From assembly GCA_037447655.1 (NCBI GenBank), contig JBBHKE010000098.1, positions 43,528-107,527 on the forward strand: DNA of 64,000 nt, given 5' to 3'. Position 1 is the first letter of the stretch. Each line of letters starts with the position of its first letter. Made by a program: the position numbers and the translations under genes. Of the stretch, positions 11,756 through 46,396 are shown piece after piece. This DNA is from Zygnema cylindricum. Lineage: Eukaryota > Streptophyta > Zygnematophyceae > Zygnematales > Zygnemataceae. The notes beneath the pieces were generated by a model. The model ran no database searches and was not told where the DNA came from. It saw nothing but the letters and a program-made list of their open reading frames with translations.

Positions 11756-12985
11756 TGTCATGCCGCATCGTGTCGGCTGCTCGCGCGCACGTTATGATGC
11801 ACGCACGCGCGGTATTCTGCATGCACGCGCAGTATTTCTCAGGCACACGCAGTATTTCTCACGCACCCGCGGTATTTTGCACGCACGCGCGGTATTTTGT
11901 ATGCACGCGCAGTTTAAGACACGCGCGCGCGGTTTTATGCATGCACGCGCGGTTTTATGCATGCACGCGCGGTTTTATGGATACACGCACGATTTTGACA
12001 CGCGCGCATAATTTTTGTTCGCACGTGCGATTTAATTCCGATTCATATTTTCAGTTTTAGTTGAAAGGTACTTATTTCATGCGATATGTTTTATTTTCTG
12101 CGTAGGTAAAAGATTTTCAAAGTTGGATGCGAAACATCGTTTGGGCGACGAGACGCGATTTCGAGTATTTCGTGATAGACCTTTTATTTCGTGTGGCATG
12201 CTTCGATTCGTGCGTATGTACGCAATTTCGAAGTATATACGCGGAGTATCGTTTGGAGGCGCATCGCGATTTCCAGGCGAGGCTTCGATACACTATCTAT
12301 TTATTTAAGTCGCGAACCCATGTAGGTTCGCGCCCACATGTAGTTAGGGAGGGTTTATACCCTCAGACGGTGGATTCTGTCAAGCGTACGGCAGACGATG
12401 TTGGCCGCCTATTGGCCAACATCTTAAGTAGTTTCATGCATGTAAAGAAGACTAAACGTAGGCTAATTTTGCTTAGGCCTAGCGTAGATCTTACTTAGCC
12501 TAATTCTCAGACTTAGAGAATTTAGCTTTTGGACAAGAATTTTCTCTTGGCAGCGGAGCTTTTCTCTTGCTCTCTCTCTCACCGATTGCCCACGTGTCTT
12601 TCTTTTCCTTGCTAGCTAGCTGTAGAGGCTAGATAGAGTAAAACTATTCTCCTTGTTTTTCTACCCTCGTTTTTAATCCACACGGCCTAAGGCCACGTGC
12701 GGAAGGTTTCCCTCCAAAGTTTGTCTTTTGGTAGAAGTGTGGAATTGGAGATCGTGGGGGAGCACATCTGGACCTTGCTGTGCCTTCCTCGAGCATCTTA
12801 CCGGTTTGGTTGTGTGTTTGTGCCTTGTTTGTATATCGGTTGGCTTGAAAGGAGTGTATTTTTGATCGGATTTGGATTTTCCCTTGTTCCGGTTGAAATA
12901 TTTCTTGCTTTGCAGTCGTAACGAGATAACTCTTGTAGGGAATGTGATAAAGACAGAGAGCCTAGTGGCTGCCTTTTGGCTTAGC
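11756..12985 (+). repeat. XY-1 repeat X1
   Basis: The repeat is about 1230 bp and shares its whole length with 17448-18658 and 9577-10773. Its first 250 bases are a CpG-dense minisatellite with a period near 20. It contains a TATA-like CTATTTATTTAAG at about 12295-12308, the hairpin at 12397-12423 and GCTTTTGGACAAGAAT at 12525-12540. By position it supplies promoter, R and U5 functions. Confidence 0.88.
12525..12540 (+). promoter_or_regulatory. Predicted self-primer (R start) in X1
   Basis: GCTTTTGGACAAGAAT is the exact reverse complement of the 16 bases right after X1 (12986-13001). In self-priming gypsy elements such as Tf1 the transcript's own 5' end folds onto the primer site. This is the candidate segment here. 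The same sequence is in X2 at 18204-18219. Confidence 0.7.
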
Positions 12986-13001
12986 ATTCTTGTCCAAAAG
13001 C
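12986..13001 (+). promoter_or_regulatory. Predicted primer-binding site of XY-1
   Basis: ATTCTTGTCCAAAAGC sits immediately after X1, where an LTR element has its primer site. I see no tRNA 3' end match (no leading TGG), but it pairs perfectly with 12525-12540. Confidence 0.7.
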
Positions 13002-14598
13002 TGCACTTTTCAAAATCACATTTTCTCAAAGTCTATTTATAAAAAAAATATAAATTATTAAAAATAAATATTTTATTTCATAAAAATAAATATTACCTTT
13101 CATATTCAGGTTTTATTCTTGTTTTTGTCTTTCCATTTTCCTTTCACTTTACCTTTCATTTTCAGTTTTGCTTTGAAATAAAAATATTATAAAAATAATT
13201 ATATTTTCAAATTTTATTATAAAAAAACATTTTGTTTTGTTCCTTTTCTTTCTTTCTTGCAATCCTTTCTTTCTATCTTGTTGCCACTCCATTTCTAGTC
13301 TGCAGATTTAGGTCTGATTTTGTTTCAGATTTTTAGGGTTAATCTGCAGAATTAGGGTTTGGCTGCAGATTTAGGGTTTGGGGCCGCAGATTTAGGGTGT
13401 GGGCGTATTTAGGGTTTATTTTTTGAAATTCTTAACCCTAGGTCAGCATATTACCATTCATTGGTCGCATATTTTTGATTTTTACAGCCTGGAATTAGGG
13501 TTTGGGAAACCTTTTTGCCCAATTTTACCGTATTTTGTGTCTTATTTTGAATTTTTCTCAATATTCCTCATATTTCTTTCTTTTAGTGCAACTTAATTTG
13601 TTAACTAGTGGATGTTTATTTTGTTTGGGATTTGATATTTTCTTTATTTTTCTCTTATCAAATTTAATCATTAAGAAAACTTAACAAAATAAAAATATAT
13701 ACTCTATATATCAAGATTGCACGATTTAACACCTATAATTATCACCGCTTTATAGTTGGGCATAGCGTGGCATAGCGCCGATACGCTTACCCTAGCAGGA
13801 TACTAGTTGCTTTGGTGTTTAGCGGTGGTTTTTGACACGTTTATTCAGAATCGGAGCAAGTTCGATTCCAAGGAGCTCTGCGAAATCCGACTTGCCTCGA
13901 CCAAGTCCGTTTCACTTTTAGTACTCACCAGAGTATTAAAGGTGTTTGTAAGCATCACGATGCCTTGCGGGTGCAGAAGTGTTTCTTTGTAATTTGGACA
14001 CTCGTGTAGGGGTTCGGTGTGGATTGGTTCTATTACGAACCTTTCTTTTTGAGCATTTGCATTTTCCTTGTTTTCTTAGCATACTATCTGGCCGTGAGTG
14101 GCCTTGAGTTTCCTTGTGACTATCTAGATTGGATTTTCATTCATAGATCTCGCCGTGGGTGGCATTATTTAGACAATTTTCTGTCTGTGCCGCTATAGAT
14201 CTGCACCAAAAGGTGCCTGGATAGTTCTCTATTTTTTTTTATAGATCTGGCCCTTCCGCCTTGCCCTATTGTTTGTAGGGTAGAGGTTTTGGTATTCCGA
14301 CTTCTTGCTAGATCTGATCACCGGGTCTTGATAGAGACTTCGTGTGTTAGCTTGTCTTGTGTGGTTTGGCCTTCCATTTGACGTACCTCGATTAGGCCGT
14401 TCCCTTCTTTCCTAGTCGTAATCGAGGGTTTTCTCTTCGTTTATGCCCACAGATTGGGATAACTTACGTTATCAATCCGGATCTACCCGCGGCAAGACTG
14501 TTTTCCGTCCACCGTAGTTAGATCTTTCTTGTTTTTTCGAGTCTACGAACGCACCAATTTCGGTTCCGACTTCTAGATCTCCGTCAGTTCGATCAGTA
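13002..14598 (+). other. XY-1 untranslated leader
   Basis: About 1.6 kb has no long ORF. It is AT-rich at first and then holds at least five TTTAGGG/ATTAGGG motifs at 13336-13410 and 13494. Blocks homologous to the XY-2 leader on the minus strand (38560-39437) include AGGAGCTCTGC, ATCACGATGCCTTGCGGGT and repeated ATAGATCT words (14140-14250). The conservation between two divergent elements supports a real leader rather than filler. Confidence 0.75.
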
Positions 14599-16443
14599 TT
14601 GACCACAGTCTCACCATTATCCTCGATTTCCTCTAAGTCATACCTAGATAAAACTGAAGAAGAGTTTTCAGAGGAAATCTTTTCTCATCCTCTTACATTT
14701 CAATTTCCGGTTAGTCCAAATTTGGAACAACCGGTGTATCCTCCTTTTGACGACATGGCTTCCTCCTCAGAGGGATCTATGGGCAGGATGCAATTTTGTT
14801 TTTCCGGATTGAAGGATACCATGTCCTTATCTCATTTCCGCATGCTTTATCACACATAATTGAGGGACTTAACCTTCCAATATCAAGACCGGTTCGACCT
14901 TAGGGTCGCTTTCTCTCTCCTTGGTCGAAACCTTCGGGGTTCGGCTCTCACTTTATACACACGGAAGTATGAGAGTATCTGTCAAATGACAGAGCACTCT
15001 CTACCCTTTGCAAGACTTCCAGATGTTTCCAGCCAGGTAAAAATTCCCTACGAGGCAGCTATTCCAGCAATATAGGACGTTAATGGGGATGAACTATATC
15101 CAGCTATCCCGAGATTCCTCAACAGTATGCTGTGGCTGCCCAAGCGGCAGTTCCAACTAGACCGGGAGGATTAATTTTTTTACGTGACCCGCTTTCGGTC
15201 ATGTTCGATCTTCTCCAAGAAGAATATCGGATGCAAAATCTAGATCAGGTTAAGGAGTTGATGAACTTCAAACGTAGGCCGGGTGAGACTGCCCATGTTT
15301 TCCGAGCTCGAATAGAAACCCTTCGAGAAGCCTTACCGGACCTTATGTCCAATGCGGAGGCTGTCCAAAAATTCGTGGGACAGTTTCCTCCTCAATCGAA
15401 AATATTCATTCAGACTCATCTCAGTCAAACCTACGGGCTGAAATTTACCTTTGAGCAAGCGGCTGAATATGCGGTTAGGTATGAGATGCAATCGTCGTGG
15501 TGGGATGCTCATGACTATCGCGAATCTCAAGGAAACGAATTTGACCAATCCCCACCACCTTCGAGGAACCCGTGGCCTTCTAATAGGCCTCCAAAGACGC
15601 CGGCCATGGGAAACCCGCCATTTCATTCTTGAGACCGATTGTGTTTCCGATGTGGAAACACGAGGCATGATGCCCGCATGTGCCCGGATAAGTCGGCCAC
15701 ATCAACCATTGCCAGCAGAAAGGACATTACGTCCACCGTTGCCATGTTAAGGACCCTAATTTCTCTTATGAGAATCAGATTCAGAACGGTGTAATTCTTG
15801 CCCGTTTTGCCAAGCCTGTCATTCCTCCTGCCGAGACCGAGAAAGAGACGACTCCGCCTAAGATCTCTCGACGAGAGAGAGAGAAAAGGCCGAGTTACAA
15901 GTCATGATGGCCGCCATGATGAAGGAGCATTTTGTCGCCTTCATGGCCGAAATGAAACCCCAGTTCACGGGGATGGCAATGACAGTCGTCCACATGCCAT
16001 CGTTGGCCGGCCGAATCCTTCGACATTGTACTGTCTAACAACGAGCATCTACTTTTGATAATGGCTCGCCTGATCATAATCGAGACGGTAAATTACAGAA
16101 TTCCCGTATTCCACTTTCTTTCGAGAAAGTATCTCTCTCTCCTCTACCAGACACAGCTTCTTCCATAGTGGCTGAAGCAATCACCAGTTTGGATAGTACC
16201 ATACATGATGCACACCGGGTCAAGGAACGACTAAGCATTTTTTTTGCCATGGTTGATGAAGCCCCCAAGGACTCTCCCTTTCCTAACGAGGTTCCCAAAG
16301 CCTCTCCCGTTGTTGATGAGTTCGCTGCAGCCGCCGCTTTGAGAGCGTTGCAGCTGAACCATAGTTTTTCAGTTATTCAACTGGTTACCGCGGATGAGCG
16401 TCGTGACCTTGATCCTCACATCACTTTCTTGGAAAATGCTTGA
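14599..16443 (+). pseudogene. XY-1 gag
   Basis: Gag is read from about 14599 in pieces. An N-terminal acidic region and a capsid-like part carry LLQEEYRMQNLDQVKELMNF and RPGETAHVFRARIETLREAL (15190-15345), the typical plant gypsy retrotrans_gag signature. A first zinc knuckle CFRCGNTRHDARMC (about 15648-15690) and a second degraded one (QQKGHYVHRC) follow. A Met-rich linker with AAMMKEHF and TVVHMPSLAG leads to 16443. XY-2 has the same order. Stops at 14857, 15073 and elsewhere and frame changes near 15630 and 15890 show decay. Gag proteins form the particle that packages the RNA. Confidence 0.85.
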
Positions 16444-17090
16444 AAGTCCTTCTGCATTAATGGTGTTGCTCCTTATCTACCTCTCATGGATACCGGAGCC
16501 AAACCCGTGGTCGTTGGATCCGGATTTGCGCTCAAGCTTAGTCTGATAGCAGACAAGCTCCAAGCCACGGCTACTCGGCTTCTCACTTCAGCCGGTAACA
16601 CGGAGCCAGTGCTTGGAATCACCAAGGACCGGCTCACCTTTCGATTCCAAAACGGAACCGAGGGTGAGTGCGTGGAAGTTTCTGTCCGAGCATTGGTCAC
16701 CAAATGCAATGACTGCGAATGCTTAGTGGGACAGGATGTTATCTTCCGAATCGGTGGGGGAATTGATATGCATGATCAGACCTTCTCCTACCATCCCTCT
16801 AATTTTCCGAGACGCAAAATTTTCCTCCCTCTTGTCTCGGCTCATAAAGCGTTGCCCACCATGGCACATTTGGCTTCCGCTCTCCCTGCATTTTCCAGTA
16901 TCGACCTTAGGGAAGACAATTGCGACTCTCTTTTCCCAGAAAGGATCCTTCCAGCCACCCCACCTTTGCGAGATAGTTTCAGTGAGCCCGGTTTTCTCAT
17001 CGACTCGCGTCATCTCTTGAAAACCATCCACACCAAGGTCTCTCCACACATTCTCCATGTGGTGGACAACGATACTAACGAGATCTTGAG
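16444..17090 (+). pseudogene. XY-1 retropepsin-type protease
   Basis: The frame is open from 16486 and carries LPLMDTGAKPVVVGSGFALKL, with the catalytic Asp-Thr-Gly intact. ECLVGQDVIFRIGGGIDMHDQTFSY, a strongly conserved block also present in XY-2 (36190-36290), follows. Family members cut the Gag-Pol polyprotein. The frame continues without a stop into the PHD remnant at about 17095, so a deletion has joined protease directly to the PHD tail. Apart from that fusion this ORF is unbroken. Confidence 0.85.
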
Positions 17091-17094
17091 TTTG

Positions 17095-17280
17095 CAGAGG
17101 GTGTATACATGTACAGTTGGTGATCAAGGGTTCCACATGGAGTGCCTCTCTTCTCCATTATCTTTCAAACCTGCTGACCATTGCTGCCTCTATATCTGTT
17201 CCGAGCCCTCAGTTGTGTTGACCACCTCCTCTACAGGCTTAAGAGCTGGGGGGGGGGATTATTGGGTCCACTCACTGTAG
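17095..17280 (+). pseudogene. XY-1 PHD-finger remnant fused to protease
   Basis: The end of the 264-codon frame reads GVYTCTVGDQGFHMECLSSP. It aligns with the second half of the XY-2 PHD finger (CDHSNQGFHMECLVPP) and with its tail LASSSAG (here TTSSTGL). Only the central Cys and the H-x2-C part remain. The first pair and the last pair of zinc ligands are lost or altered. Its position just before the G tract matches XY-2, proving that the deletion spans DNMT to integrase. Confidence 0.75.
17247..17258 (+). promoter_or_regulatory. Polypurine tract of XY-1
   Basis: A run of ten G followed by A lies right before Y1. It is the expected plus-strand primer and occupies the same place as the G-rich tract of XY-2 (31485-31494). 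Confidence 0.75.
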
Positions 17281-17445
17281 GGGAGTATTCTTCCCCTTCT
17301 CTCTTTGATAATTTTCACCTTTATTCCTTCTCATGGTGTATATAATTTTTGTCTTTTCATATTTATTTTCGTTGTTATATATGTTTATGAGCATGACTTT
17401 GCAGGTTTTGATGTATGTTTGCTTGCTTGTCTCTCATGCACGACA
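17259..17445 (+). repeat. XY-1 repeat Y1
   Basis: About 187 bp from TTATTGGGTCCACT to CATGCACGACA. It is repeated at 18664-18854 at roughly 80 percent identity by eye. Both contain a small hairpin AGGGGA/TCCCCT. It has no counterpart upstream of X1. Confidence 0.85.
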
Positions 17446-17451
17446 GCTGTC
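17442..17451. repeat. Palindromic Y1/X2 junction
   Basis: GACAGCTGTC is a perfect 10-bp palindrome made of the element's 3' terminal GACA, two bases GC, and its 5' terminal TGTC. XY-2 has GATAGCTGTC at the same junction. Confidence 0.85.
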
Positions 17452-18658
17452 ATGCCGCATCGTGTCGGCTGCTCGCGCGCACGATATTCTGCTCGCACGC
17501 GCAATATTCGGCGCGCGCGCACAATATAATGCATGTACGCGCGATTTTATGCATGCACACGCGATTTCATGCATGGACGCACGATTTGATGCACGCGCGA
17601 TATTTCGCACGCACGCGCGATATTATGCATGCACGCACGATTTTATGCATGCACGCACAATTTTATGCATGCACACATGTTTTCATGTTGTTTCGTCGCA
17701 CGTGCGATTTCACGTCGATTCATTTATTTTCACGTTTGGCAGTATAGTATTAATTTCGTGCGATACTTTTCATTTCGTGCGTAGGTACACGATTTTCGAA
17801 GTATGGACGTGATATATCGTTTGGGCGAGGCATCACGATTCTTGGAATATTTCGTGCGATATGTTTCGTTTCGTGCGGTATTTATCGTTTCGTGCGTATG
17901 CACGCAATTTCGGAAGTATCGACGCGAAGTATCGTTTGGAGGCGTATCGCGATTTCCGAGCGACGCTTCGATATATCTATTTATTTAAGTCGCAACCCAT
18001 GTAGGTTCGCGCATAGATGTAGTTAGGGAGGGTTTTTACCCTCGGACGGTGGATTTTGTCAGTCGTACGGCAGACGATGTTGGCCGCATATTGGCCAACA
18101 TCTTAAGTAGTTTCATGCATGTAGAGTAGACTAGACGTAGGCTAATTTTGCTTCGGCCTAGCATAGCTCTGACTTAGCCTAATTCTCAGACTTAGAGAAT
18201 TTAGCTTTTGGACAAGAATTTTCTCTTGGCAGCGGAGCTTTTCTCTTGCTCTCTCTCTCACCGATTGCTCCACGTGTCTTTCTTCTTCTTGCTAGCTAGC
18301 TGTAGAGGCTAGATAGAGTAAGACTATTCTGCTTGTTTTTCTGTCCTCGTTTTTATTCCACACGGCCTAAGGCCACGTGCGAAAGGTTTCCCTCCAAAGT
18401 TTGTCTTTTGGTGGAAGTGTGAAATTGGAGATCGTGGGGGAGCACATATGGACATTGTTGTGCCTTCCTCGGGCGGCTTACCGGTTTGGGTGTGCCTTGT
18501 TTGTATTTCGGTTGGCTTAAAAAGGGTGTATTTTTGATCGGATTTGGATTTTCCCTTGTTCCGGTTGGAATATTTCTTGCTTTGCTGTCGTAACGAGATA
18601 ACTCTTGTAGGGAATGTGATAAAGACCAAAGAGCCTAGTAGCTACCTCGTGGCTTAGC
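17448..18658 (+). repeat. XY-1 repeat X2
   Basis: It is the second copy of X, with the CpG-rich minisatellite at 17465-17680, hairpin 18076-18102, self-primer complement 18204-18219 and end GGCTTAGC. Five bases (ATTAG) separate it from Y2. Confidence 0.88.
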
Positions 18659-18663
18659 ATTAG

Positions 18664-18854
18664 TTATTCGGTCCACTTCACTCTAGGGGAGTATTCTTCC
18701 CCTTTTTCTCTTTGGGTCATTTCCCCTTTTATCGTTTCTCATGGTGTATACGTTTTTCTCTTTCTCATTCATTTTTCGTTTGAATATATGGTTGTCCACA
18801 TGACTTTGCTGGTTGTGATGCATGTTTGCTCTTTCTGGTCTCTCATGCACGACA
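18664..18854 (+). repeat. XY-1 repeat Y2 and element 3' terminus
   Basis: It runs from TTATTCGGTCCACT to GCACGACA. It ends at the target duplication ATGT (18855-18858), beyond which copia c3 resumes. Confidence 0.88.
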
Positions 18855-29684: not shown

Positions 29685-29876
29685 TGTCGTGCATGTGTCG
29701 AATAACAGGAAGATGTATGCAATATCATCAGCTGTGCTACAATTACACCCAAATGATAACAAGACATCGTTATTTAAATAAGACATAAAAGTGGAAAATG
29801 GATAATACAACGATAGGCAAGGTGGAAAAAAAAGAAAGGTCAACGACTTAGATGGTTATGGCTAGGTCAGTTTATT
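29685..29876 (-). repeat. XY-2 repeat Y2 and 3' terminus
   Basis: 192 bp, from AATAAACTGACCTAGCC to CATGCACGACA on the minus strand. It matches Y1 (31293-31484) closely. Confidence 0.88.
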
Positions 29877-29878
29877 CA

Positions 29879-31290
29879 ACTAAGCCGATGGATGACCACT
29901 AGGCCCCACGGTCTATTTATATTCCTTGCAGGAGTTATCTTATCAAGGAAAATCTTAATTTATAGGAAAATAAAACAAATCGCATAAACAACCGAGAAAG
30001 ACAAACACAAACTGAAAATGACAATATTTCCGACACTTATAAGGTTTGAGATAACCAAACTCAAAAGATGCGCATAAGCCAAATAGAAATAAATACACAA
30101 TCACAAGAAATAATAACAACAAAACGATAATCCCGATATACAACTTCCACAATAATTAAAGTTCAGCCACAGCCGGGAAAAGAAGTTTGTGTTGTGAGAT
30201 CGCGGTCAATATCCACTCAAAAGGACGAGGAAAGTCAAGGGAAACCATGTAGGTCTTGGCTGAGGCCGTATAGATTAATATGTAAAGCTTTACAAGAGAT
30301 TGATAATGTAGTAAAAACTAGACGCTTCACGCAAAGGCAGAAAATCGCCTCTAAGTTGTCCGTACAATTTTACAAATAAAAAGATGGCTGCAAAAAATCC
30401 TCAATACTCAAAACAAATAATTCGTGCACTTGAAAATTGTGTATAGAAGGTGATCTTAAATGAACTAAATAAAAAAAACTACGCCTAGCAAAAACAAGCC
30501 AATCAGAAAACAGCGTGCTATGTAAGTATTTGCGCCTAGTTTGGATTCAGCCAATAGGAGGCCGAAATCCTATGCCCTACGTTACAAAGTATATAACCTA
30601 CGGACTAAAACCCTTCCTATCTACATGTAAACGCGTGAATCTCCAAATGGTTCACGACTTAAAATGGTCCAATCACGTCGCTTCGTCAGAACTGACAACC
30701 AATTTGTCTATCACTTGCGTCGACGGTCCAGATGCAAAGTTATGAAAATTGCATAATCTGCGTCTACTGTCGAGATGCTACTCCACGCGAAATGATTAAA
30801 ATTTGTTGTTTTCCAGGATTCAAGGGAAAGAAAGTTTGTACGGTAGGACGCAGGTTCGGTCCATTTTATGATCGCGAAAATTCTGAAAAAGGTAAGTCGT
30901 ACGGTTTACATAATAACCAAAGTAGCCGCCGGCGGAAATCGCGGACGATAGATGTGGTACGGCTGACGTGAAATATCACAATTCACCATCTGCAAAAATC
31001 AAGGAAAATATATGTTGTACAGTCGAATTCGCCGTCGACGGAAATTACGCGATTCTGAGTTGTACTGTCAATATTGTCGTCGGCGTATATTACGGCCAAA
31101 AATAAATATGTAAATATGTACGGTCGACGCGTACAATGATAAAATATTCACGGTTGACGCGAACGCGAAATGTAAGTATATACGGTCCTGCAAACCCCAA
31201 ATAACACACATATACAAATTAGTGTGGCGGTTGCCCGTCCTAATACCTAAATATAAACAAATAAAGTGGCCGAGAAGATGCGGCATGACA
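29879..31290 (-). repeat. XY-2 repeat X2
   Basis: About 1.41 kb from TGTCATGCCGCATC to CATCGGCTTAGT, matching X1 (39460-40839) throughout. It contains the self-primer complement at 30420-30440. The TCGTACGGT/CGTCGAC-rich part at 30720-31150 is the subfamily-specific section. Apart from the terminal 15 or so bases it does not resemble X of XY-1. Confidence 0.88.
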
Positions 31291-31292
31291 GC

Positions 31293-31484
31293 TATCGTGC
31301 ATGTGTCGAATAACAGGAAGTTGCATGCAATATCATCAGCTGTGCTACAATTAAACCTAAATGATAACAAAACATTGCTATTGAAATAAGACATAAAAGT
31401 GGAAAATGGATAATACAACAACAGGCAAGGTGGAAGAAAAAAAAAGATCAACGACTTAGCTGGTTAGGGTTAGGTCAGTTTATT
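31293..31484 (-). repeat. XY-2 repeat Y1
   Basis: 192 bp immediately after the purine tract, ending GCACGATA. Two bases (GC) separate it from X2, giving the near-palindrome GATAGCTGTC. Confidence 0.88.
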
Positions 31485-31494
31485 TCCCCCCTCC
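31485..31494 (-). promoter_or_regulatory. Polypurine tract of XY-2
   Basis: GGAGGGGGGA on the minus strand, right after the integrase-PHD stop codon and right before Y1, the standard place of the plus-strand primer. Confidence 0.75.
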
Positions 31495-31500
31495 AGCTCT

Positions 31501-33039
31501 TTAGCCGGCAGAGGAGCTGGCCAACACGAACGGAAGCTCGCGACATCCGTGGCAAAACCAGTGACCATCCGGAACTGCCAATAATGGTGGTACCAAACAC
31601 TCCATGTGAAACCCCTGATTGGAATGATCACAAAGTAACATGGTAGTTTCCCCGTCCGATCGATGACAAAAGGTACATGTTGTCGCCTCCATAATCGGCA
31701 TTTGCATATGATCCATATCCTGCGACAAATCTGGTAAATAACATGGAGCACAATTTTTGGAGTGCTCTCGAAAAGTCCGTGTGTCCGCTCCTTGTAATTC
31801 CAATATCCCGTTCGGATCCACCGCGATAATCCGTACGATGTGTATAGAAACATCCGTGTCCAAAGTGTCAAAAGATTGCCTGTGAAGATGAACACAATCT
31901 CCCACCCAATAGGGCTTCTGTTGCGACATGTAAATGCCACTTCGAGTGGTCGCAAATTGAAGTGTGTCATGATGCTGGGCAATCTGCAGGTTATCAAAAG
32001 CCATGGGCATTTCACGGGCAAAAAGCAAAGCACGACGAGTAAGTTTTTCCAAAAAAATAGTGTTAGACATCAGTGGAAGCCCAAAGCTTGCAGCTTTCTG
32101 AATATTGCGACCGAGCAACAGTTGTTGCCCAAATAAAACATAATACGGGCTGAAATTAGCCAGACTAGCTTGAAGTGACATGCGATATCCCATGGTAATG
32201 TAGCCGAGGGACTCGTTCCAAACTGAAATGTGTTTTTCTAAGCAATGCTTACGTAAGGCACTCTTAAATGTCTGGATTGCCCGTTCAGCTAGGCCATCGG
32301 CCTGGGGGTGATCCCGATTAGTACGTCGATGATCGATGAGAACCTCATCAAGCATCTCTTGAAATTCTCCTTGAAAATTTGTACCTTGATCCGTAAGGAC
32401 GTCTGATAGGGCACCGTATCTCATAAGAACATGATCCTTAAAAGCTGCGGTGGTTAACTTAGGTGTCTTATATGGCAGGGCTACAACTTCTACCAACTTA
32501 CTGAATTTTTTGATCATAATCATGATGTATTGTTTTCCTCTACGTGAGATGGGAAATGGTCCAGCCAGATCAACGGACCATCGATAGAATAAACCCCTAA
32601 TGGGTAAAGATTGGAGCATAGTCTGCCGATTAGAGAAAGAAGTTTGAAGACGGTCACAGGTGGCACACTTGTGTAAAATAGCAAAAACATCGGCTTGCAT
32701 TCCTGACCACCAATACCGTGCCTAAACTAGGGTTAACATCAGCTTGGTACTGTAGTGACCAAGCTCGGTGTGAATTTGCTCAATTAGAGAAAGTCGCTCG
32801 GTAGGACGAGGGACGTGCATATGGCTTCCATCTGCCAACAACCGAAGTAATGATCCTCTGAGCCAATGGTAATGTTTGGCCCTCTTTTTAACTTTGTCTT
32901 CTTCGTCAGAGTTAGTACCAGTCCTAAAGGTCTGGGTCAATAGGAAGAGTATGAGAGGCACATCACGCCAAAGATCTGTGGCGGGACGGGGATTTAGAAT
33001 AGAGGCTAGACAGTAAGTAAGATAAGAACCTGCTGACAT
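31501..33039 (-). pseudogene. XY-2 integrase with C-terminal PHD finger
   Basis: The HHCC zinc domain reads HTELGH...KCATCDR (about 32660-32790) and is interrupted by one TAG near 32722. From 32700 a 399-codon frame is open. It holds SVDLAGPFPISRRGKQY (first Asp), VLTDQGTNFQGEF (second Asp) and HPQADGLAERAIQTFKS (Glu), the gypsy DDE triad. YWVGDCVHLHRQSF and a beta-rich tail follow. No chromodomain is seen. Instead the last 58 residues hold a PHD-like finger. The enzyme joins cDNA ends to target DNA, and C-terminal chromatin readers in related elements steer target choice. The single stop in the zinc domain is the only lesion seen in this gene. Confidence 0.9.
31543..31677 (-). other. PHD-type zinc finger domain of XY-2 integrase
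   Basis: Spacing is C-x2-C (CTFC), x11, Cys of LLCDHS, then G-F-H-x2-C (GFHMEC), x14, and C-x2-C (CHGC) preceded by the usual aromatic pair WF. This is the C4HC3 pattern except that the fourth ligand, normally Cys in CDxC, is Ser (CDHS). XY-1 also lacks that Cys. PHD fingers bind the histone H3 tail. Loss of one ligand may weaken zinc site 2, so binding is not certain. Confidence 0.8.
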
Positions 33040-33559
33040 AGCAGGAACATCGTCATCATCGAAACCCTGTCAAACTATATTATCCGTCGTTCGGGGCAAA
33101 GAATTTCAGGAAATTCCGTCCGCATTTAGACTAAGCAGACCTGGTCGGTGAATTATTTCAATGTCATATTCTTGTAGAATTATAGCACATCGGGCTAGTT
33201 TCTCGGAAAGCTTATCGTTAGTCATCAACTAATGCCAGGGTTGATGGTCAGTTAGGAGTGTGAAAGATTTTCCGTACAAACAAAGGCGTAAGTGAACGAC
33301 TCCCCAAACAGTGGCTAGACACTCTCTTTGTAGCTACTATAATTTGATTCAGCCCGGTTATTGCTTCTACTCGAGTAAGCAACGACATATTTTTCTCCGC
33401 TCAACTCTCTTTGTGTCAAGATGGCAACGATCTCGAGTTTTCCAAAATCTGTTTGGAGACAAAAAGGGAGTTTGTGATTGGGAGGATGGAGAATTGGAGC
33501 ACTTGATAAGGTGATTTTTAATTTTTGAAATGCGAAAATCTGATCGAGACCACATATAA
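33040..33559 (-). pseudogene. XY-2 RNase H and linker
   Basis: Following the RT thumb, the frame reads KLPFCLQTDFGKLEIVAILTQ, then EKYVVAYSSRSNNRAESNYSSYKE (gypsy RNase H motifs). It then has VWGVVHLRLCLYGKSFTLLTDHQPW with stops at about 33225 and 33110. The domain removes the RNA template during cDNA synthesis. The catalytic Asp of TDxS is present (TDFG), but the downstream stops break the chain. Confidence 0.82.
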
Positions 33560-34663
33560 ATGCCACTTCCTTCTTGAGAATGTCGTTTAACACAGATGCG
33601 ATTGTGTTGAAATTAGACATGAATCTACGATAATAATTAGCAAGTCCGAGAAAAGCTCGTAGACTTGTGAGGTTTTTGGGAGCAAGCAATTTACTTATTG
33701 CCTCTACCTTTGCTGCGAGAGGAGTGATCCCCTCAGCCGAGATAAATTGGCCGAGGTAAGGCACTCCCTCGGCTTCAAAGGTGCATTTCCCTATATTACA
33801 TTTTAATCCGACCATTTATAATTCAGTCAATACTCATTCGATGTGAGCTGCGTTCTCATCGATAGTAGCAGAGGCAATGATGAGGTCATCGATGTAACAT
33901 CTAGCACACTTACAACCTCTAAAAACAGAGTCCATGACTTTTTGAAATACCGCCGGAGCATTTTTCAGTCCGAATGGCATTACGGCCCATTCCCATCGGC
34001 CGTCACTACCCCAAAAGGTAGTTTTATGCATGTCTTTTTCCTCTATCTCAATTTGATTAAATCCTTGACGGAGGTCAAGGATACTAAAATACTTTGCTCC
34101 ACCTACAGGAAAAAATATTTCTTCGGAAGAGGCATGGGATGACGATCTTGAACCGTTCTAGCATTTAGTTCACGATAATCACCACACATTCGACGTTCAG
34201 TAAAATTACCCTCGGAATCCTTTTTCCGAGGCATGACAGTGGGAGCTGCAAATGTGGAGTCTGACCGATAGATTAGGCCAGCTTCCTCTAGTTCAGCACA
34301 TCGTTTGTCTACCATTTCCCATTCAGTTTCTGACAGACGATGTTTCGGTTTAAATATCGGGCGGTCATCTTCGAGGTCTATCGACATCTTATACGCGGTG
34401 TGACGACCCAAATTGTACATACAAAAAGCAAAGGCATCGACATTTTGTAGAACAACGTCATTCAGTAATTCTTGTTTGGCCTTTGATAGATTAGTGCCAA
34501 ATTTCCAATTAGGAGCATCGGGGTTCTCGATTGTCTTGGGTTCCATGGCTTGTGCAAAGGCCAACTGCTTATCTACGATAAGCATTTGCCCAAACTCGTA
34601 AGCCATAGGCGTCAATTTAAGGCAATTCAACGAATGATTCCAGCTGCGTGATGGAAAAGCAAC
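33560..34663 (-). pseudogene. XY-2 reverse transcriptase
   Basis: It begins after a TAG that follows the methyltransferase frame (same frame), with the finger region RPIFKPKHRLSETEWEMVDKRC and APTVMPRKKD...RMCGDYRELNARTV. Motif A is FSILDLRQGFNQIEI (after a one-base shift near 34110). WAVMPFGLKNAPAVFQ follows, and the active site CYIDDLIIAS at about 33900 has both Asp intact. The thumb (VPYLGQFISAEGI, LTSLRAFLGLANYYRRF) is at 33600-33790. It is a typical Ty3/gypsy RT with one frameshift and a stop between 33834 and 33815. It synthesises element cDNA. Confidence 0.9.
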
Positions 34664-34666
34664 ATT

Positions 34667-35866
34667 CTAATGAGGAGTGGGTAGATTATGCATGGAACTT
34701 GCAGAATGGACAGCCGTGTATGCGAGTATAGACCAAGACATATGGCTAAGATTGAGGAAATTGCAAATAGAGATTTCCAGAACTGGTGGAATTGGAGAAG
34801 GAAAAAGGAAAAATTGAAATGTGGTCCATTTGAGAGTGGGATGGAAAGATTTACTTAGTGATGCATTCCCCCCCCAAGTTGGCTGAGACGGATGTGTCTG
34901 AGAGTGGCGACCAGCTGCAAACCCAAGACCTAAAACAAAAGACAAAGATTGAGGGTCGATGACACGACCTAAGAAAGTGCATCTTTGACCATCTGTAAGA
35001 CCAGAAGTGGCAGGGGTGCCAAGGATGAAATGCTTGAGGTGTTCGCAATCCGTAGAGGTAGGCTCTTCGAGCTTACCGATATGAATGTTTCGGAGCATGC
35101 CAGGACCGTCATTAAATAATGCGTGTGAATGTGGGTAAGAGACTAAGGTACGAAGAACCTTGAGAGGTTGACCGGGGACATTGATATTAAAATTTGGGGG
35201 AAAGTCCTTTTGAATGCAAGGATGCACCTTATGGAAAGGAGCTAGGGCAGTTTGAATGTCTGTAGGAGGAGGACGAACTGACAGGTTGGCCTTACGGAGT
35301 CGACCAATATCAATCAGGTTGGTCCATTTAGAGCGAACGCAATGCGCTAGCAAACCATGGAGAGCGACGTGAATTATAAGAGGCGGACCAATTAATTGTT
35401 TGATCCGTTGATAATCAGCCAGGACCGTAGGTCTTGGATAATTATGAGCCGCAACATTTTCCAAGATATATCCCATTGGATGACCTAAAGTTTGTAGAAA
35501 ATGCAAGATGCGAACCAATTTGAAAAATAATTTAGTGCGGGGATCGGCCAAAACAATACTTTTCCCGGCCCAAGACATTCCTGGGCACTCCCATCCGCCA
35601 AAAACTAGATCGACCGGCCCAATTTCTAATAAGTGATGGTTCCCCACAATCCGTATGTCTTGTGGGATGGCAGTATGCATATGCTCGTATGCCGATTTTG
35701 GTAACAAATGTGGGTATTGAGAATGCAACAGATTACAATGATGTAGTTGTGCTTTCCGTGATAAAGGATCAATCTCGACAAAATTATAAAATCGGATTAA
35801 TAATCCATTCGGCAAACATGAAAAGAGGGAAGTGTCAATTCCAGAGAAGAGGTCCAAAATCACCAA
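34667..35866 (-). CDS. C5 cytosine DNA methyltransferase inside the retrotransposon Pol
   Basis: 399 codons are open without a break. Residues from the first codon after the protease stop: motif I ILDLFSGI (3-10, SAM binding), motif II FVEIDP (29-34, Glu31), motif IV DLVFGGWECPGMS (86-98, catalytic Cys94). Then comes DPRTKLFF...LVRIL and motif VI ILENV (134-138). CVRSKWTNLID (176-186) resembles the R-Y-F-W-x-N segment of DNMT3. VLRTLVS and motif IX/X GQRCTFLGRVIDP (293-305) follow. The motif order is linear, so it is DNMT3-like rather than a permuted DRM. The usual Pro before the catalytic Cys is Glu. It lies in frame between protease (TGA at 35867) and RT (TAG), so it was probably made as part of Pol and released by the protease. 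It would add 5-methyl groups to cytosine, plausibly on the element's own cDNA. Confidence 0.93.
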   Translation of the reverse strand: MVILDLFSGIDTSLFSCLPNGLLIRFYNFVEIDPLSRKAQLHHCNLLHSQYPHLLPKSAYEHMHTAIPQDIRIVGNHHLLEIGPVDLVFGGWECPGMSWAGKSIVLADPRTKLFFKLVRILHFLQTLGHPMGYILENVAAHNYPRPTVLADYQRIKQLIGPPLIIHVALHGLLAHCVRSKWTNLIDIGRLRKANLSVRPPPTDIQTALAPFHKVHPCIQKDFPPNFNINVPGQPLKVLRTLVSYPHSHALFNDGPGMLRNIHIGKLEEPTSTDCEHLKHFILGTPATSGLTDGQRCTFLGRVIDPQSLSFVLGLGFAAGRHSQTHPSQPTWGGNASLSKSFHPTLKWTTFQFFLFPSPIPPVLEISICNFLNLSHMSWSILAYTAVHSASSMHNLPTPH

Positions 35867-36530
35867 TCAATTTGGATGAGGTTTGAATTCGACCGGATTC
35901 CAATTAATGGGAAGAAACCCATAAGAGTCTGTTGGGATTATGATCGGAGGAGAGACTGGAGAAAGTGGGATTGACAAGGTTTGTTTATAGATGCTATCAA
36001 ATTCCCTCGTATCAAAAAGAAAACTTGGGTCACCAAAGATTTCTGGCAAGTAAAAACTATCGAGCAGAATTTTTTTTGTTGACAATGAATGAAAGATTTT
36101 GGCCCCCACAAAATTCCCTGAAAATGCAGGTATGAAGGTGGCTGAATGCGCCATAACAAGCATGGGTTTTCGAGCGGAAATTAGCGAAATGCAGAATTTG
36201 CGTTTTGGGAAGTTAGTGGGTCTATAGGAAAATGTTTGATCATGCATGTCAACTCCACCCCCTACACGAAATATAACGTCCTGTCCCACTAGGCATTCAT
36301 AGTCACTACATTTAGTGACCAGAGCGTGAACCGAGATCTCAACAAAGTCTGTGGCCGTTCCGTTCTAGAACCTGAAAATGAGCGGTTCCTTAGTGATTCC
36401 TAGAACTGGCTCGGTTGTACCCGCCGATGTTAACATGCGAGTAGAAGTGGACTGAAGCTTGTCCAGAGTTAGACCAAGCTTGAGTACAAAGTTAGAGCCC
36501 AATATCACCGGCTTTGCAGCGTATCGATGA
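35867..36530 (-). pseudogene. XY-2 retropepsin-type protease
   Basis: The segment aligned with DTGAKPVVVGSGFALKL of XY-1 reads AAKPVILGSNFVLKL. A one-base loss at the Asp-Thr-Gly site (about 36525) shifts the frame. Downstream LTSAGTTEPVLGIT, ECLVGQDVIFRVGGGVDMHDQTFSY and a 90-residue tail follow in the frame from 36289. The frame ends with TGA at 35867-35869, directly adjoining the methyltransferase in the same frame. That stop could be a CGA that lost its CpG cytosine, which is inference. Confidence 0.82.
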
Positions 36531-36667
36531 GAGGCAAGGAAGGGGCTATACCATTAATCAACAATGCACCCTTCCGTTATCCAAAAAGATGATGTGAGGA
36601 TCGAGGGAATTTTTCTCCTCTATTAAAAAATAAATAGCATATAAATAGCAGCAAGAATTTTGTGCAG

Positions 36668-38539
36668 CTAAATTAGTTGTAACACGGCAGCTGCAGCTGA
36701 GCTATCGGAGGTAAAGGAGATAGAGGAGATTTTTGGTGAGTCGAAAATCATACTGGATAGAATGCACAAGTGTTCTTTCATGCGGTCTGCCTCATGTATA
36801 GTATGATCCACCATGTTAAGAGCTTCAACCGCGATGGTTGAAGCGGTTTTAAGTAAGGGAGGAGAAGGTTCTTTAATGAATGACAAATGAATGCGTGTGG
36901 TAGGATTTTTACCATCACGGCTGTGATCGGTCGAACCTTTGTCGAACGTAGCCTCTCGTTGTTGGATGATGGAATCTCGTAAGATTTGACCTGCTAACGT
37001 GGGCAGGTGCACAACAGTGCGAGCCATGTTTGTAAATTGTAGCTTCATTTGAGTCACAAGGCTGCGAATTGTTCTTTCATCATAGCCGCCATTTGCTCTT
37101 GCATTTCCAAACGCTCTCTCTCTCTCTTCGGGATACCTTAGATGGAGTGGTGTCTTACTCCGGTTCTTTAACCAGTTCAACCGGTTTTCCAGATCCAGCG
37201 GGAATGCAACCACTCTTAATTTGGTTCTGAAAGGAAAATTTTGAGTTCTTTATATGACAATGTTGGACATAATGTCCGGTTTGCTTGCAATGTTCACAGT
37301 TAGCAGTTTTGTCTGGACACATTGGGGCATCGTGCCCCGTCTTCCCACATCGAAAGCATAATTGGTTTCCGAGAGCAATAGGTGAGGTCCCCATGGCCGG
37401 GACTTTAGGAGGCCGGTTGGTAGGACGAGGCCATGGAACAATCGGTTCTTTCGAGACCGCTTTGTGACGGTCATGGGCTTCCCACCAACAATTTTGCATT
37501 TCGTATTCCATGGCATGTTGGGCGGCTTGGTCGAAAGTGAACTTGAAGTTGTAGGTTTGAGTCAGGTGACTCTGGATAAATTTCTTAGACTGACTCGAAA
37601 AATGTCCTACAATGTTAGGGACAGCTTCAGCATCCGACATTAAGTCCGGCAATGCGTCGCGAAGAGCTTCCATACGAGCACGCATGGTAGGGGTGGTCTC
37701 TTTGATTTCCGTTCGAAGTTCATTAACTCACAAATTTGGTCAAGGTTATATATACAGTATTCCGCTTGCAACATTTCAAACCTAACAGAGAGCGAATCCA
37801 ATATAGGGATCGTCAACGCTGGTCGTGTTGGGATTCAAGCACGCGCAGCTATAGCGAACTGCTGTGGTATTTCCGCAACTGCTGCTGTAATAAGATCACC
37901 GTTGAGATCAAAGACTTCCGGAATAGCTGGTTGGTTGGGAATTTCTAGTTGTCCTATAATAGCAAGACTCCCAGCGAAAGCTGGAGAAAACTATTTCATC
38001 GCAAGTACGAATCATACTTGCGGGAATAGAGAGTAAGGGCTGACCCGCGAAGGTAACGGCCTAAAAGAGATGAAGGGACCTGTAGGTGAAACCGATCTTG
38101 GTACTGGAATGCAAATCACGCATTTCGGTATCTAATAACATTCGGAAATGGGATAAGGTCATGGTGTCATCCATTCCTGAAAAAATAAATTAAGCCGACC
38201 CCCTCTCTCGGATGTGGAAGCCAATTCTAATAACAAAATGATTGGGGCTAATAATGAGTCTGTAATTTGTGGAAACCAAAATGATAATGAATTGGAATCC
38301 AACCCGTCAAGGGAATCGTGGTCAAATTCTTCCCAAAAAAATGTGGAAGAGACTGATGATAAGGAAGATACTGAGGTGAGAGAAGATCGAATCGAAGGGG
38401 AAATTTGACAAGAGATATTCGTCGATGGAAGGTCCAAAAGAGTAGGTAAATCTGATGGTCTTGATTCTGTGGGCCTAAATGGGGCCGACGATTGGGTGGT
38501 TGCGAAAGGATAATCGAGTTTATCCCAATTGGTGGGCAT
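36668..38539 (-). pseudogene. XY-2 gag
   Basis: The N-terminal start MPTNWDKLDYPF at 38539 leads into a Ser-rich region. Further on (37685-37155) are MRARMEALRDALPDL, FTFDQAAQHAMEYEMQ and two intact zinc knuckles, CFRCGKTGHDAPMC and CEHCKQTGHYVQHC. A Met/Gln-rich, probably helical linker follows (37213-36668) with TVVHLPTLAG, as in XY-1. The frame changes at about 38160, 37690 and 37180. Gag forms the particle and the knuckles bind element RNA. Confidence 0.87.
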
Positions 38540-38559
38540 AAAAATGATAAAACCAAATG

Positions 38560-39437
38560 ACGACCAGATAGCAAAATTGATCTATATGAGATGTTTCAAA
38601 TGTAGACCACACCACTCACTTGTCCAATAAGCCAATCAATCTCTAATAGGGCCTTGATAACGAGATCTATCAGGAAGCCGTATTACCAAAACCTTCTACC
38701 TTGCAAACAAGGGGACAAGGCCGAAGAGCCAGATCTATAAAGGCAAATAACTTACTATCTAAGCACTCCCAAGTGCAGATCTAAAGCGGCACAATCCACA
38801 AAGGAGCTAACCAATGCCTCCAACGGCAAGATCTATGGAACAAATCTCACAACGGGCAAAGCAAACTCAGCCAAGGCCACTCAAGGCAATATAGCAAGCA
38901 TGGAAAGCTGGACAAATGATATGCTCAATAGAAGTGGATTAACACTAATCCACTCCAAACACGATCCCTTTATACGATCAACCGACTACCTTAGCACGCG
39001 CCTGTACCCGCAAGGCATCGTGATACTTACATAACACTCTTAGCAATCTGGTGATTGCCAAGGGTGAACTGCGGTTGTTCACTACAACCGAAGTTTTGCA
39101 GAGCTCCTTAGAAAGGATCCGCTCCACTAACACCCCTCTTTAGTGAAGTATGTCTCAATGTGAGCAAACGATGCCTCATGTATACAAAAAAAAAAAAAAT
39201 GAGGAAACAAAAACCAAATACTTAAGTTAGTGTAGTATACCGTTGGCCAAAAATTGGCCAAGGAGAAAAAAACGTCCACCAACAAGCAAATGGTAATTAA
39301 AGATGTAAAACTATTTGTAGATTTTTGCAAAAATGTATTTATAAAAATATATATGTATTTTTTTTTTTTATTTTTTTTTTTTTTATTATAAGAAAACTGA
39401 AATTGAAATAAAACAAACAAGCGAGAAAAGAAAAGTA
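38560..39437 (-). other. XY-2 untranslated leader
   Basis: There is no coding signal. Blocks are shared with the XY-1 leader (13860-14400): GGAGCTCTGC, ATCACGATGCCTTGCGGGTA, repeated ATAGATCT, and the GTGGCCTTG block. Poly-A/T runs at 39186-39200 and 39358-39385 are the AT-rich part next to the primer site. Confidence 0.75.
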
Positions 39438-39458
39438 ACAATTTTCAAGTGCAGGAAT
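39438..39458 (-). promoter_or_regulatory. Predicted primer-binding site of XY-2
   Basis: Immediately after X1 the minus strand reads ATTCCTGCACTTGAAAATTG. It is complementary to X2 30420-30440 with one mismatch and to the X1 copy (about 40000-40020) with three. The sequence is unrelated to the XY-1 primer site, yet self-complementarity is kept. Confidence 0.7.
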
Positions 39459-39459
39459 A

Positions 39460-40839
39460 CTAATCCGATGGATGACCATTAGGCCCCACGGTCTATTTAT
39501 ATTCCTTGCAGGAGTTATCTTAACAATGATAATCTGAATTAATACGTAAATAAAACAAATCGCATAAACAACCGAGAAAGACAAACACAAACTGAAAATA
39601 ACAATATGTCTGACACTTATGAGGTTTGAGATAACCAAACTCAAAAGATGCGCATAAGCCAAATAGAAATAAATACACAATCACAAAAAATAAAAACAAC
39701 AAAAGGAAAATCCCAATATGTAACTTCTACACTAATTAAAGTTCAACAACAGCCGGGAAAAGAAGTTTTTGTTGTGAGATCGCGGTCGAAATCCACTCAA
39801 AAGGACGAGAAAAGTGAAGGGAAACCATGTAGGTCTTGGCCGAAGCCGTATAGATTAATATGTAAAGCTTTACAAGAGATTGATAATGTAGTAAAAACTA
39901 GACACTTCACGCAAAGGCAGAAAATCGCCTCTAAGCTGTCCGGACAATTTTACAAATAAAAAGATGATTGCAGAAAATCCTGAATACTCAAAACAAATAA
40001 TTCGTGCACATGAAAATTTTGTGTAGAAAGTGATCTAAAATGAACTAAATAACAAAAAATACGCCTAGCGAAAACAGGCCAATGAGAGTACAGCATGTTA
40101 TCTAAGTATTTGCGTCTAGTTTGGATACAGCCAATAGGAGGCCAAATCCTATGCCCTACGTTACAAAATATATAACCTACGGATTAAAACCCTTCCTATC
40201 TACATGTGAACGCGTGAACCTCCAAATGGTTCACGACTTAAAATGGTCCAATCACGTCGCTTCGTCAGAACTGACAACCGATTTGTCTGTCACTTGCGTC
40301 GACGGTCCAGATGCGAAGTTACGAAAATTGCATAATCTGCGTCGACGACCGAGATGCTACTCCACGCGAAATGATTAAAATTTGCTGTCGGTCGGGATTC
40401 AAGGGAAAGAAAGTTTGTACGGTAGGACCACAGGTACGGTCCACTTTGTCGTCGCACGAATTCCATAAAATGTAAGTCGTACGGTCGACGTGAAATGATC
40501 GAAGTCACCATCGGCAGGAATCGCAGAAAATATATATATTATGGTAAGTTTGTTTGTACCGACGTGAATTCGAACATGAGTTGTCGGCGAGAAATCTTGG
40601 AGAAATAAATAAGTACGGTCGACGTGAAATGATCCGATTCACCGTCGACGGAAATCACGGAAAAAATAAGTCGTACGGTACAAGTCATCGCGGGAATCCC
40701 GGGAACAATATGTAGTACTGTACAACTCGTACGGTCCTGCGAAACCCAAATAACACCCAAATATAAATTAGTGTGGCGGCTGCCCGTCCTAACACCTACA
40801 TATAAACAATTAGAATGGCCGACGAGATGCGGCATGACA
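39460..40839 (-). repeat. XY-2 repeat X1 (5' terminus)
   Basis: About 1.38 kb, beginning TGTCATGCCGCATCTCGTCGGCC on the minus strand and ending CATCGGATTAGT. It matches X2 but has no Y upstream. Outside lies minisatellite-like DNA. Part 40370-40740 has degenerate units around TACGGTCGACGTGAAATGATC and TCACCGTCGACGGAAATC. Confidence 0.88.
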
Positions 40840-44549: not shown

Positions 44550-46396
44550 GTGCATCATGGCAGCATAGCAGCGCAGCCATAGCAGCGCAACATGGCAACA
44601 TAGCAGTGCAGCAAACCAACTAATCACCTGGGTCCACTACATCAAAATTTTGGGCTATCGCAGCATGGCAGTATCGCAGTGGACCTACTCACCTATTCAC
44701 CCAATCCTAATGCATTTCTACAATAGTTCAACTTGGGAGCAGGGAGAGCTTTAGTAAGCATATCATCAACCATTGTTGCATCAGCCAAATAACATAATTT
44801 GATCACCCTAGAGAACACTTTTTCTCTTACAAAGTGTAATCCTACATCCAGGTGCTTACTCTTGAAGTGGTGACTCGGTTTAGAGGCAATGGCAATGGCA
44901 GCCTGGTTATCACACCAGATCACCTGTGGCCCAACCTGCATGTATCCTAGTTCTTGCAACATGGATTTTACCCATAAGAGTTTTTTGAGGGCCGAGCTTG
45001 CTGCCATATATTTTGACTCCATTGTTGACTGCGCTGTAACCTTTTGAAGTTTGCTGCTCTAGCAGCACGTTCAGTTCCCAATCTGCAAAACGAATCCCGT
45101 GGTGGACTTCCGGCTTGGCATGTTGCCATAGCTTGCATCACTCCACGTTTGCAGCTTCACTTCTCCTCCGCCTAGCGTGAGTTTGAAGTCTTTTGTTCCT
45201 GCTAAATATCTTAAGACTCTTCTTGCTGTTTCAAAATCAGATTTTCTCGGATTCTCTAGACTTCTGCTCAGTACCCCAACTGCTGCAGCAATGTCAGGGC
45301 GGGTACAGTTCATGTAATATATTAAGCTTCCCAATATCAGTCTATAAGAGATTAGTGTCATAGGATCATTCTCCCTTGACTCTAAATACTCGCTAACAAT
45401 GACACCCGGTTCTGTCTCTTCTCCCTTTAACCTCGGCCGAAACTCCATTAGAGTTAGACATCCTTTTGCCCCCCGCATTCCATACTCATCTAACATTTTT
45501 CCAATAGCCTCTTTTTGAGTGAATTTTATTAATTTCTTATTTCTATCCCTCTCTACCTGGATTCCTAGAATATACTTTGCCTCACCAAGGTCTTTCATCT
45601 CGAACCGTGAGTTTAGAGCAGTTTTGATTTTGTTAATTTCAGCCATTGATTTACTAATTAATAGTAAATCATCTACATACACCGCTATATATACTATCCC
45701 AATTTCACCATTTAGAACGTAGACAAAGTAATCAGAACTTATCCTTTGAAATCCTGGACTGGTTAAGAATTCATCAAGCTTCAGATTCCATTTCTTAGGG
45801 ACATGTTTTAGGCCGTACAAAGATTTTAGCAACTTGCATACTAAGTGCTCTTTTCCTGGTTCTGCGTACATTTTAGGCTGCTGCATGTAAATGGTCTCTT
45901 CTAGTTCTCCATGCAAAAAGGTCGTCTTTACATCCATCTGATGAATTTCCATATCTTCTATAGCAGCTAGGGACAGCAAAATCCTAATTGTCGGAAATCT
46001 TACAACCGGAGAAAATGTTTCTTCAAAATCGATTCCTTCCTTTTGATTATAACCCTTTGCCACAAGTCTAGCCTTATATGGTTGAATGGTGTTATCGGGA
46101 TTTAACTTCACCTTGAATACCCATTTGCTGCCGATCGCCTTTCGGTCTGGAGGACGTTTCACAAGCTCCCATGTTTGGGCCTCCATGATTGACTTCATTT
46201 CGTCGTTTGCTGCCTCGATCCAGTGATTCTGCTTTGGTGATGAGAAGGCCTTTTGGATGGTCAAGGGCTCCCTTGAGGCTGTCGAGTAGGCAAAGTGAGA
46301 GCTTACTTGCAGGCGGCTGCTGATCTTCTTCCCCTCAAAAATTCTGAGGCTGAGATCGTCGGATGCCGTGCATTGCGCTAACTGCACTGATTGCAC
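44550..46396 (-). pseudogene. Copia c5: reverse transcriptase / RNase H
   Basis: A 441-codon frame (46396-45071) contains WIEAANDEMKSIMEAQTWELV and [27 protein letters not shown]. It has MEIHQMDVKTTFLHGELEETIYM (motif A), SLYGLKHVPKKWN and VYIAVYVDDLLLISKS with the YVDD site intact. After a break at 45071, RNase H continues to 44693 with MESKYMAASSALKKLLWVKSM and WCDNQAAIAIASKPSHHF. It is one of the best-preserved copia RT frames here. The 3' UTR (44560-44690) resembles that of c6, but no 3' LTR follows. The hAT remnant begins instead. Confidence 0.88.

Follow-up and report, generated by a model that had tools for sequence, protein, structure and literature searches.

Cytosine methylation is the usual means by which retrotransposons are silenced, and the locus described here raises the question of what such an element would do with a cytosine methyltransferase of its own. 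The window (the whole stretch analyzed, 64,000 nucleotides of Zygnema cylindricum contig JBBHKE010000098.1, whose internal numbering is used throughout) contains a 399-codon frame, open from stop to stop, that occupies exactly 34667-35866 on the minus strand. The chance of such a frame at the given composition is approximately 1e-10, and the longest frame in 200 base shuffles had 192 codons. A first-pass annotation, made from the letters alone, had described it as a complete DNMT3-like methyltransferase with motifs I, II, IV, VI, IX, and X in linear order. We recovered all of these motifs in that order and could also read motif VIII: I (DLFSG), II (E31), IV (GGWEC, with the catalytic Cys), VI (ENV), VIII, IX, and X, named as is customary for C5 methyltransferases. 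The methylase corresponds to approximately the first 312 codons, and the frame extends about 87 codons beyond motif X toward the reverse transcriptase (RT). A profile search with the 399-residue frame retrieved Pfam DNA_methylase (PF00145; E = 3.2e-7, 30.5 bits against a curated cutoff of 22), a profile of C5 methyltransferases. Membership in PF00145 is further supported by the ordered motifs I, IV, VI (ENV), and VIII and by a predicted AdoMet-type fold, the model of which has low confidence beyond residue ~190 (pLDDT mostly 29-62 as far as residue 300) and reaches only 68-70 near the catalytic loop.

A PDB sequence search with the window methylase returned DNMT3A as the best match, and the solved structures closest to it by both sequence and fold are DNMT3A/B/C. 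The motif order is linear rather than permuted, and DNMT3A scores 75.7 bits versus 28.8 bits for DRM2; on these grounds, we rejected an assignment to the DRM type. Profile scores and motif order likewise led us to reject the DNMT1 type. The maize chromomethylase 4fsx (presumably ZMET2) is not among the PDB matches listed for the window methylase, which excludes nothing by itself. Phylogenetic analysis groups the retrotransposon methylases with DNMT3 (support, 96/78) in a tree that samples 39 of the 117 sequences P0004-P0120 (every third one), whose DNMT3 rows are about half filled and whose window row is flagged for unlike composition. In the same tree, bacterial-type sequences fall outside the joint retrotransposon and DNMT3 group at this support, and a bacterial origin was rejected accordingly. 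Profile, PDB matches, fold, and tree thus agree with the original reading of the enzyme as DNMT3-like.

That reading had further placed the frame between the protease and the RT, in a reading frame shared with both. The shared frame is real, as the adjoining frames 35867-36364 (protease end) and 34103-34666 (RT start) continue that of the methylase, but the three are not joined in the window copy, which is interrupted by TAG at 36365, TGA at 35867, TAG at 34667, and TAG at 34103 and changes frame in the protease, the RT/RNase H region, and the integrase. Taken singly, the two flanking frames gave no Pfam match; they are identified through continuous relatives, and their counterparts at locus L024 match Pfam. 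The description of the methylase as complete is correct with respect to its length but not its state. The window copy alone has Pro in place of Gln after the catalytic Cys (1 of the 20 covering copies of its family, family 1) and Cys in place of the first motif VIII Arg (1 of 21 family-1 copies, with Gln in two others). Its A1 and A2 repeats differ at 187 of 1,345 aligned sites. Together, the stops, frame changes, and repeat divergence indicate an old, decayed member in which the methylase has stayed open, and we predict this copy to be inactive.

Features of the methylase-bearing element and of its shorter neighbor in the window
Feature	Position	Strand	Evidence or remark
C5-cytosine methyltransferase domain, DNMT3-like, catalytic Cys in GGWEC	34907..35866	-	Pfam, motifs, PDB matches, fold
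Spacer from methylase to RT, same frame, ends TAG in window copy	34667..34906	-	Continuous with RT in L024
Retropepsin-type protease end and linker, methylase frame	35867..36364	-	Upstream TAG at 36365; L024 counterpart Asp_protease_2, E = 8.7e-4, below curated cutoff
RT start, methylase frame	34103..34666	-	RVT_1 1.3e-30 in L024 counterpart
Remaining RT (YIDDL) and RNase H; different frame, stops in window copy	33315..34130	-	Pfam
Integrase: H2C2 zinc part (below cutoff) and DDE core, rve	31687..32721	-	Pfam
PHD finger, end of integrase frame	31531..31686	-	PF00628, 1.2e-8
Gag end, CCHC zinc knuckles	37155..37727	-	zf-CCHC 9.9e-4, just below curated cutoff
Repeat A1, element left end, starts TGTCATGCCGCATC	39459..40839	-	Repeat comparison
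Repeat B1, ends ...GCACGATA, 2 bp (GC) ahead of A2	31293..31484	-	Repeat comparison
Repeat A2	29879..31290	-	Repeat comparison
Repeat B2, element right end, ends ...GCACGACA	29685..29876	-	Repeat comparison
Second, shorter split-repeat element (A1-body-B1-A2-B2), methylase missing, duplication ATGT/ATGT	11756..18854	+	Repeats, translation

The polyprotein that is broken in the window is continuous at L024, where Gag, protease, methylase, RT, RNase H, integrase, and PHD finger lie within one 2,395-codon frame. Five pieces of this frame scanned against Pfam gave matches above the curated cutoffs to DNA_methylase (9.3e-13), RVT_1 (1.3e-30), RNase H, rve (2.6e-12), and PHD (3e-10) and matches below them to the zinc knuckle (0.00085) and the protease (0.00087). 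In L015, a copy of a second family, methylase, RT, RNase H, and integrase share a 1,520-codon frame with the protease just upstream, and the C-terminal PHD match is weak (0.0017, below the cutoff). A profile search of the genome (352.8 Mb, 2,689 contigs), for which 123 of 782 candidates from a first look were scored, yielded 123 PF00145 matches, all above the cutoff; the true number is at least this, since the window's own copy is absent among them. We retrieved 36 of these, namely, the first 20 with 4.9 kb on each side and 16 stretches of 2.6 kb chosen for a family-1-like profile range, and 35 of the 36 are retrotransposon copies belonging to two families. The first 20 comprise four copies of family 1, 15 of family 2, and one host exon of the chromomethylase type. 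Protease, methylase, and RT follow each other on one strand in all four of the former and in 12 of the 15 family-2 copies (16/20), as well as in each of the 16 chosen extra loci, so that the order is kept in 32 of the 36 retrieved matches. It is missing from L010 and L026 (RT not found), L019 (protease not found), and L016. The candidacy of L016/L008 as a retrotransposon methylase was rejected, as it represents the host exon (99 bits with 4fsx versus 48 bits with DNMT1), and it was scored as a miss; such a chromomethylase-like exon suggests a host of the plant lineage. Carriage of the methylase is hence a multicopy trait of two retrotransposon families and no one-off. Among the homologous proteins, P0002 and P0003 are shorter relatives; scans of viral and genome contigs retrieved no close relative and one 24%-identical IMG/VR locus.

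Comparison of these copies by the Nei-Gojobori method gave methylase dN/dS values of 0.16-0.32 in the 6 of 21 family-1 pairs that were measurable, the value of 0.32 stemming from two nearly identical copies, and of 0.10-0.34 in 13 of 21 family-2 pairs. Left out were 15 family-1 pairs with saturated dS and eight family-2 pairs (six saturated, two identical); the 21 saturated pairs are 57-85% identical in protein sequence. In the four family-1 pairs shared between the two domains, the RT has values of 0.05-0.23 versus 0.16-0.23 for the methylase, and two further pairs are saturated. In the measurable pairs, the methylase is therefore under purifying selection, much like the RT. The catalytic Cys and the Glu and Asn of the ENV motif are kept in 35 of 35 covering copies and the second motif VIII Arg in 36 of 36, the window copy being included in each case. 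The two families differ in the residue preceding the catalytic Cys: motif IV has Glu-Cys in all 20 covering family-1 copies and in P0001-P0003, versus Pro-Cys, as part of Pro-Cys-Gln, in all 15 family-2 copies. Pro-Cys is also found in 109 of the 120 listed homologues, the rest being eight that the search expression did not read and P0001-P0003. Further, the acidic residue of motif II is Asp in 8 of the 20 covering family-1 copies. With its Glu-Cys, family 1 could have a catalytic activity that is changed or gone.

On the minus strand, the window element occupies 29685-40839 and is arranged as A1-body-B1-A2-B2, a split direct repeat layout like that of the DIRS elements named PAT and Ngaro. 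The same layout recurs in the 11756-18854 element and around L024. The A repeats start TGTCATGC and the B repeats end GCACGACA, and the internal meeting point of B1 and A2 reads ...CA-GC-TG..., i.e., both outer ends joined (with TA for CA in the window copy). The elements are flanked by target duplications (TTGG/TTGG at L024 and ATTG/TTTG at the window element; see the table for the neighbor). At L024, A1 equals A2 over the compared stretches (187 and 783 bases, 39 of them overlapping) and the B repeats are 99.6% identical, which points to a very recent insertion. Across the genome, an 18-base sequence that bridges B1 and A2 is found at 158 places versus 0 for the reversed control; four of the 158 places were looked at. 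In four family-2 stretches, whose limits may fall short of the element ends, no internal repeats were seen. By their Pol order (protease, RT, RNase H, and DDE integrase), TG...CA ends, and short duplications, the split-repeat elements are of the Ty3/Gypsy type, with split repeats in place of the two full-length terminal LTRs of an ordinary Gypsy element. They depart from DIRS elements in having 4-bp target-site duplications. The Pfam matches of the five pieces, which cover most of the L024 frame, include no tyrosine recombinase. The original description of a Ty3/gypsy Pol with a PHD finger and permuted ends is thus supported by the domain order, the PF00628 match, and the split repeats. Between A1 and A2 of the window element, transitions affect 39 of 190 CG sites versus 71 of 1,155 other sites, a comparison biased by the definition of a CG site; this modest and weak excess is compatible with methylation but no sign that self-methylation is strong.

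Several further features surround these elements. In the 11756-18854 element, the protease linker continues directly into the PHD finger, a configuration expected if the methylase, the RT, and most of the integrase had been lost by internal deletion. More A repeat copies lie at 9577-10960 and 5764-6040, both on the plus strand and both starting TGTCATG; the former runs beyond the A end like an element start, and the latter stops near an N run. The observed/expected CpG ratio is 1.38 in A2 with B2 (29687-31290) and 1.46 in A1 (39459-40839), versus 0.67 and 0.72 in two flanking stretches. L024 and L025 are 99.9% identical from position 2612 onward, and the earlier part of L025 is unrelated and partly repetitive; an A1 start sought around L025 was not found, and the copy looks truncated. 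The window also holds Copia-type frames on the minus strand (45071-46402, 52139-53581, and 53802-55289) with RVT_2 (2e-71 and 8e-73), rve, gag_pre-integrs, and SH3_retrovirus domains. The Copia-type frames scanned in the window gave no methylase match, so transposition can do without one in this genome. Neither the Rfam nor the tRNA scan of the window returned a match. A search for PsaA found four short matches, the best of which fits many PsaA chains alike.

The integrase with its PHD finger belongs to a lineage with members in other green organisms. Over 77% of the integrase-PHD part of the window, protein P0121 of Klebsormidium nitens, likewise an integrase with a PHD finger, shows 46% identity, and the lineage also occurs in the liverwort Calypogeia fissa (53%), Sphagnum magellanicum, and several green algae. 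More broadly, integrase proteins of this lineage (P0121-P0180), the majority with a match to PHD, are frequent among sequences from metagenomes and the green lineage. In the integrase tree, which has few outside rows and an unsettled bootstrap, the window sequence nests neither with K. nitens nor with the bryophytes. The best solved relatives of the PHD finger are PHD fingers of chromatin proteins.

On the basis of these observations, we consider it probable that the DNMT3-type domain, set between the protease and the RT of a multicopy Ty3/Gypsy-type polyprotein, methylates the element's own new cDNA. After packaging of the polyprotein with Gag and its cleavage by the protease, methylase and RT would share one particle, in which the double-stranded cDNA would be methylated before integration; a new copy would thereby resemble the methylated DNA of the host. 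The PHD finger may steer the integrase to particular chromatin. From its layout, the internal B1-A2 junction could be a template for rebuilding the outer ends lost in transcription, perhaps via a circle, as in IS3-type elements, which use circles. Combining these elements into a single scenario, we propose, quite tentatively, that a branch of green-lineage Ty3/Gypsy elements captured a DNMT3 once, before the split of the two families, and that circular or end-joined cDNA, its outer ends rebuilt from B1-GC-A2, would be methylated in the particle by the copackaged Glu-Cys DNMT3 and then cut and inserted by the DDE integrase in the manner of IS3-type circles, with the PHD finger choosing the chromatin.

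Self-methylation of the cDNA has to be weighed against several observations. The only known test of a Gypsy-borne relative, that of K. nitens KnitGypsy-Dnmt3 in yeast, detected no methylation, an outcome that is called inconclusive in the published account (de Mendoza et al. 2018, PMC5890265). In family 1, the catalytic Cys is preceded by Glu and not by the usual Pro, the structural model is weak over the C-terminal part and at the catalytic loop, and the CG transition excess is modest. The yeast result and the Glu-Cys of family 1, along with the variable acidic residue of motif II, would also fit a domain that no longer methylates and is kept as a folded spacer or a nucleic acid-binding part of Pol. 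We regard such a role as improbable, given that the catalytic Cys, ENV, and the second motif VIII Arg persist in all covering copies of both families and that family 2 has the usual Pro-Cys-Gln. Less improbable, though still unlikely, is that the methylase acts on host chromatin at or around the insertion site under the guidance of the PHD finger, so that insertions would land in silent chromatin, or generate it, and be less harmful. The PHD finger that follows the integrase in family 1, and more weakly in family 2, and its kinship to the PHD fingers of chromatin proteins are in keeping with this, but within Pol the methylase is distant from the PHD finger, and the protease may separate the two.

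That a single dead element gained the methylase by a chance fusion, or holds a piece of a cellular gene, could be argued from the stops on both sides of the window methylase and from the neighboring element that lacks it. This reading is scarcely credible in light of the 35 retrotransposon copies from two families among the 36 retrieved matches, the purifying selection on the methylase, and P0001, encoded on another contig, in which a protease end is likewise fused to a methylase 44% identical to that of the window. A single chance insertion is refuted by these further copies. A many-copy family keeps a de novo-type methylase of its own under selection in the middle of Pol, and Pro-Cys and Glu-Cys active-site families exist side by side in one genome. 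Self-methylation of the cDNA remains the reading that we favor. With methylase, DDE integrase, PHD finger, and split repeats coupled in a single element, the old question of what a transposon gains from methylating DNA becomes open to direct testing.

Among known systems, the vertebrate DNMT3A/3B/3C come nearest of all solved structures, by sequence and fold as well as by motif order (20-26% identity in structural alignments), but the window methylase is part of Pol and shows no sign of the ADD and PWWP domains of the vertebrate enzymes. Retrotransposon-borne DNMTs are also found in SymbioDIRS-Dnmt3 and SymbioLINE-Dnmt of Symbiodinium; SymbioDIRS-Dnmt3 methylases methylate CG in yeast, but the carriers are DIRS elements with a tyrosine recombinase or LINEs and, in the authors' published account, represent independent captures (PMC5890265). 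Split direct repeats of the form A1-internal-B1-A2-B2 characterize one type of DIRS element, and one published source describes DIRS elements as lacking target-site duplications (PMC8969392); the Zygnema element shares this layout but differs in its DDE integrase, TG...CA ends, and 4-bp duplications. According to a 2019 opinion paper, cytosine or adenine methylases are carried by Ty3/Gypsy and DIRS elements of stramenopiles, red algae, green algae, and charophytes, and methylase-bearing elements of these two types are absent from land plants (PMC6338049). A literature search at the title and abstract level, with subscription journals mostly outside its reach, found no report of another Gypsy-borne DNMT3.

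The nearest published system is KnitGypsy-Dnmt3 of K. nitens, in which an unpermuted Dnmt3 lies in a Gypsy Pol with DIRS-like repeats and is under purifying selection and for which cDNA self-methylation was proposed along with alternatives (de Mendoza et al. 2018, PMC5890265). The Zygnema element matches this published description in its Gypsy Pol with an unpermuted Dnmt3, its DIRS-like repeats, its selected methylase, and its green-lineage host. The first-pass annotation had mentioned a published capture of this sort in the charophyte Klebsormidium, and the likeness is borne out, suggesting that the Klebsormidium case is not isolated. The annotation's proposal of a distinct family is only partly right, since KnitGypsy-Dnmt3, as described, already joins Gypsy Pol, Dnmt3, and DIRS-like repeats; fitting that description, the element belongs to an already known kind. 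Within this kind, it differs from the published account in that one genome holds two families, the first with Glu-Cys in motif IV, and in its TG...CA ends, 4-bp duplications, and joined internal ends; the main text on KnitGypsy-Dnmt3 does not use the words protease and PHD (PMC5890265).
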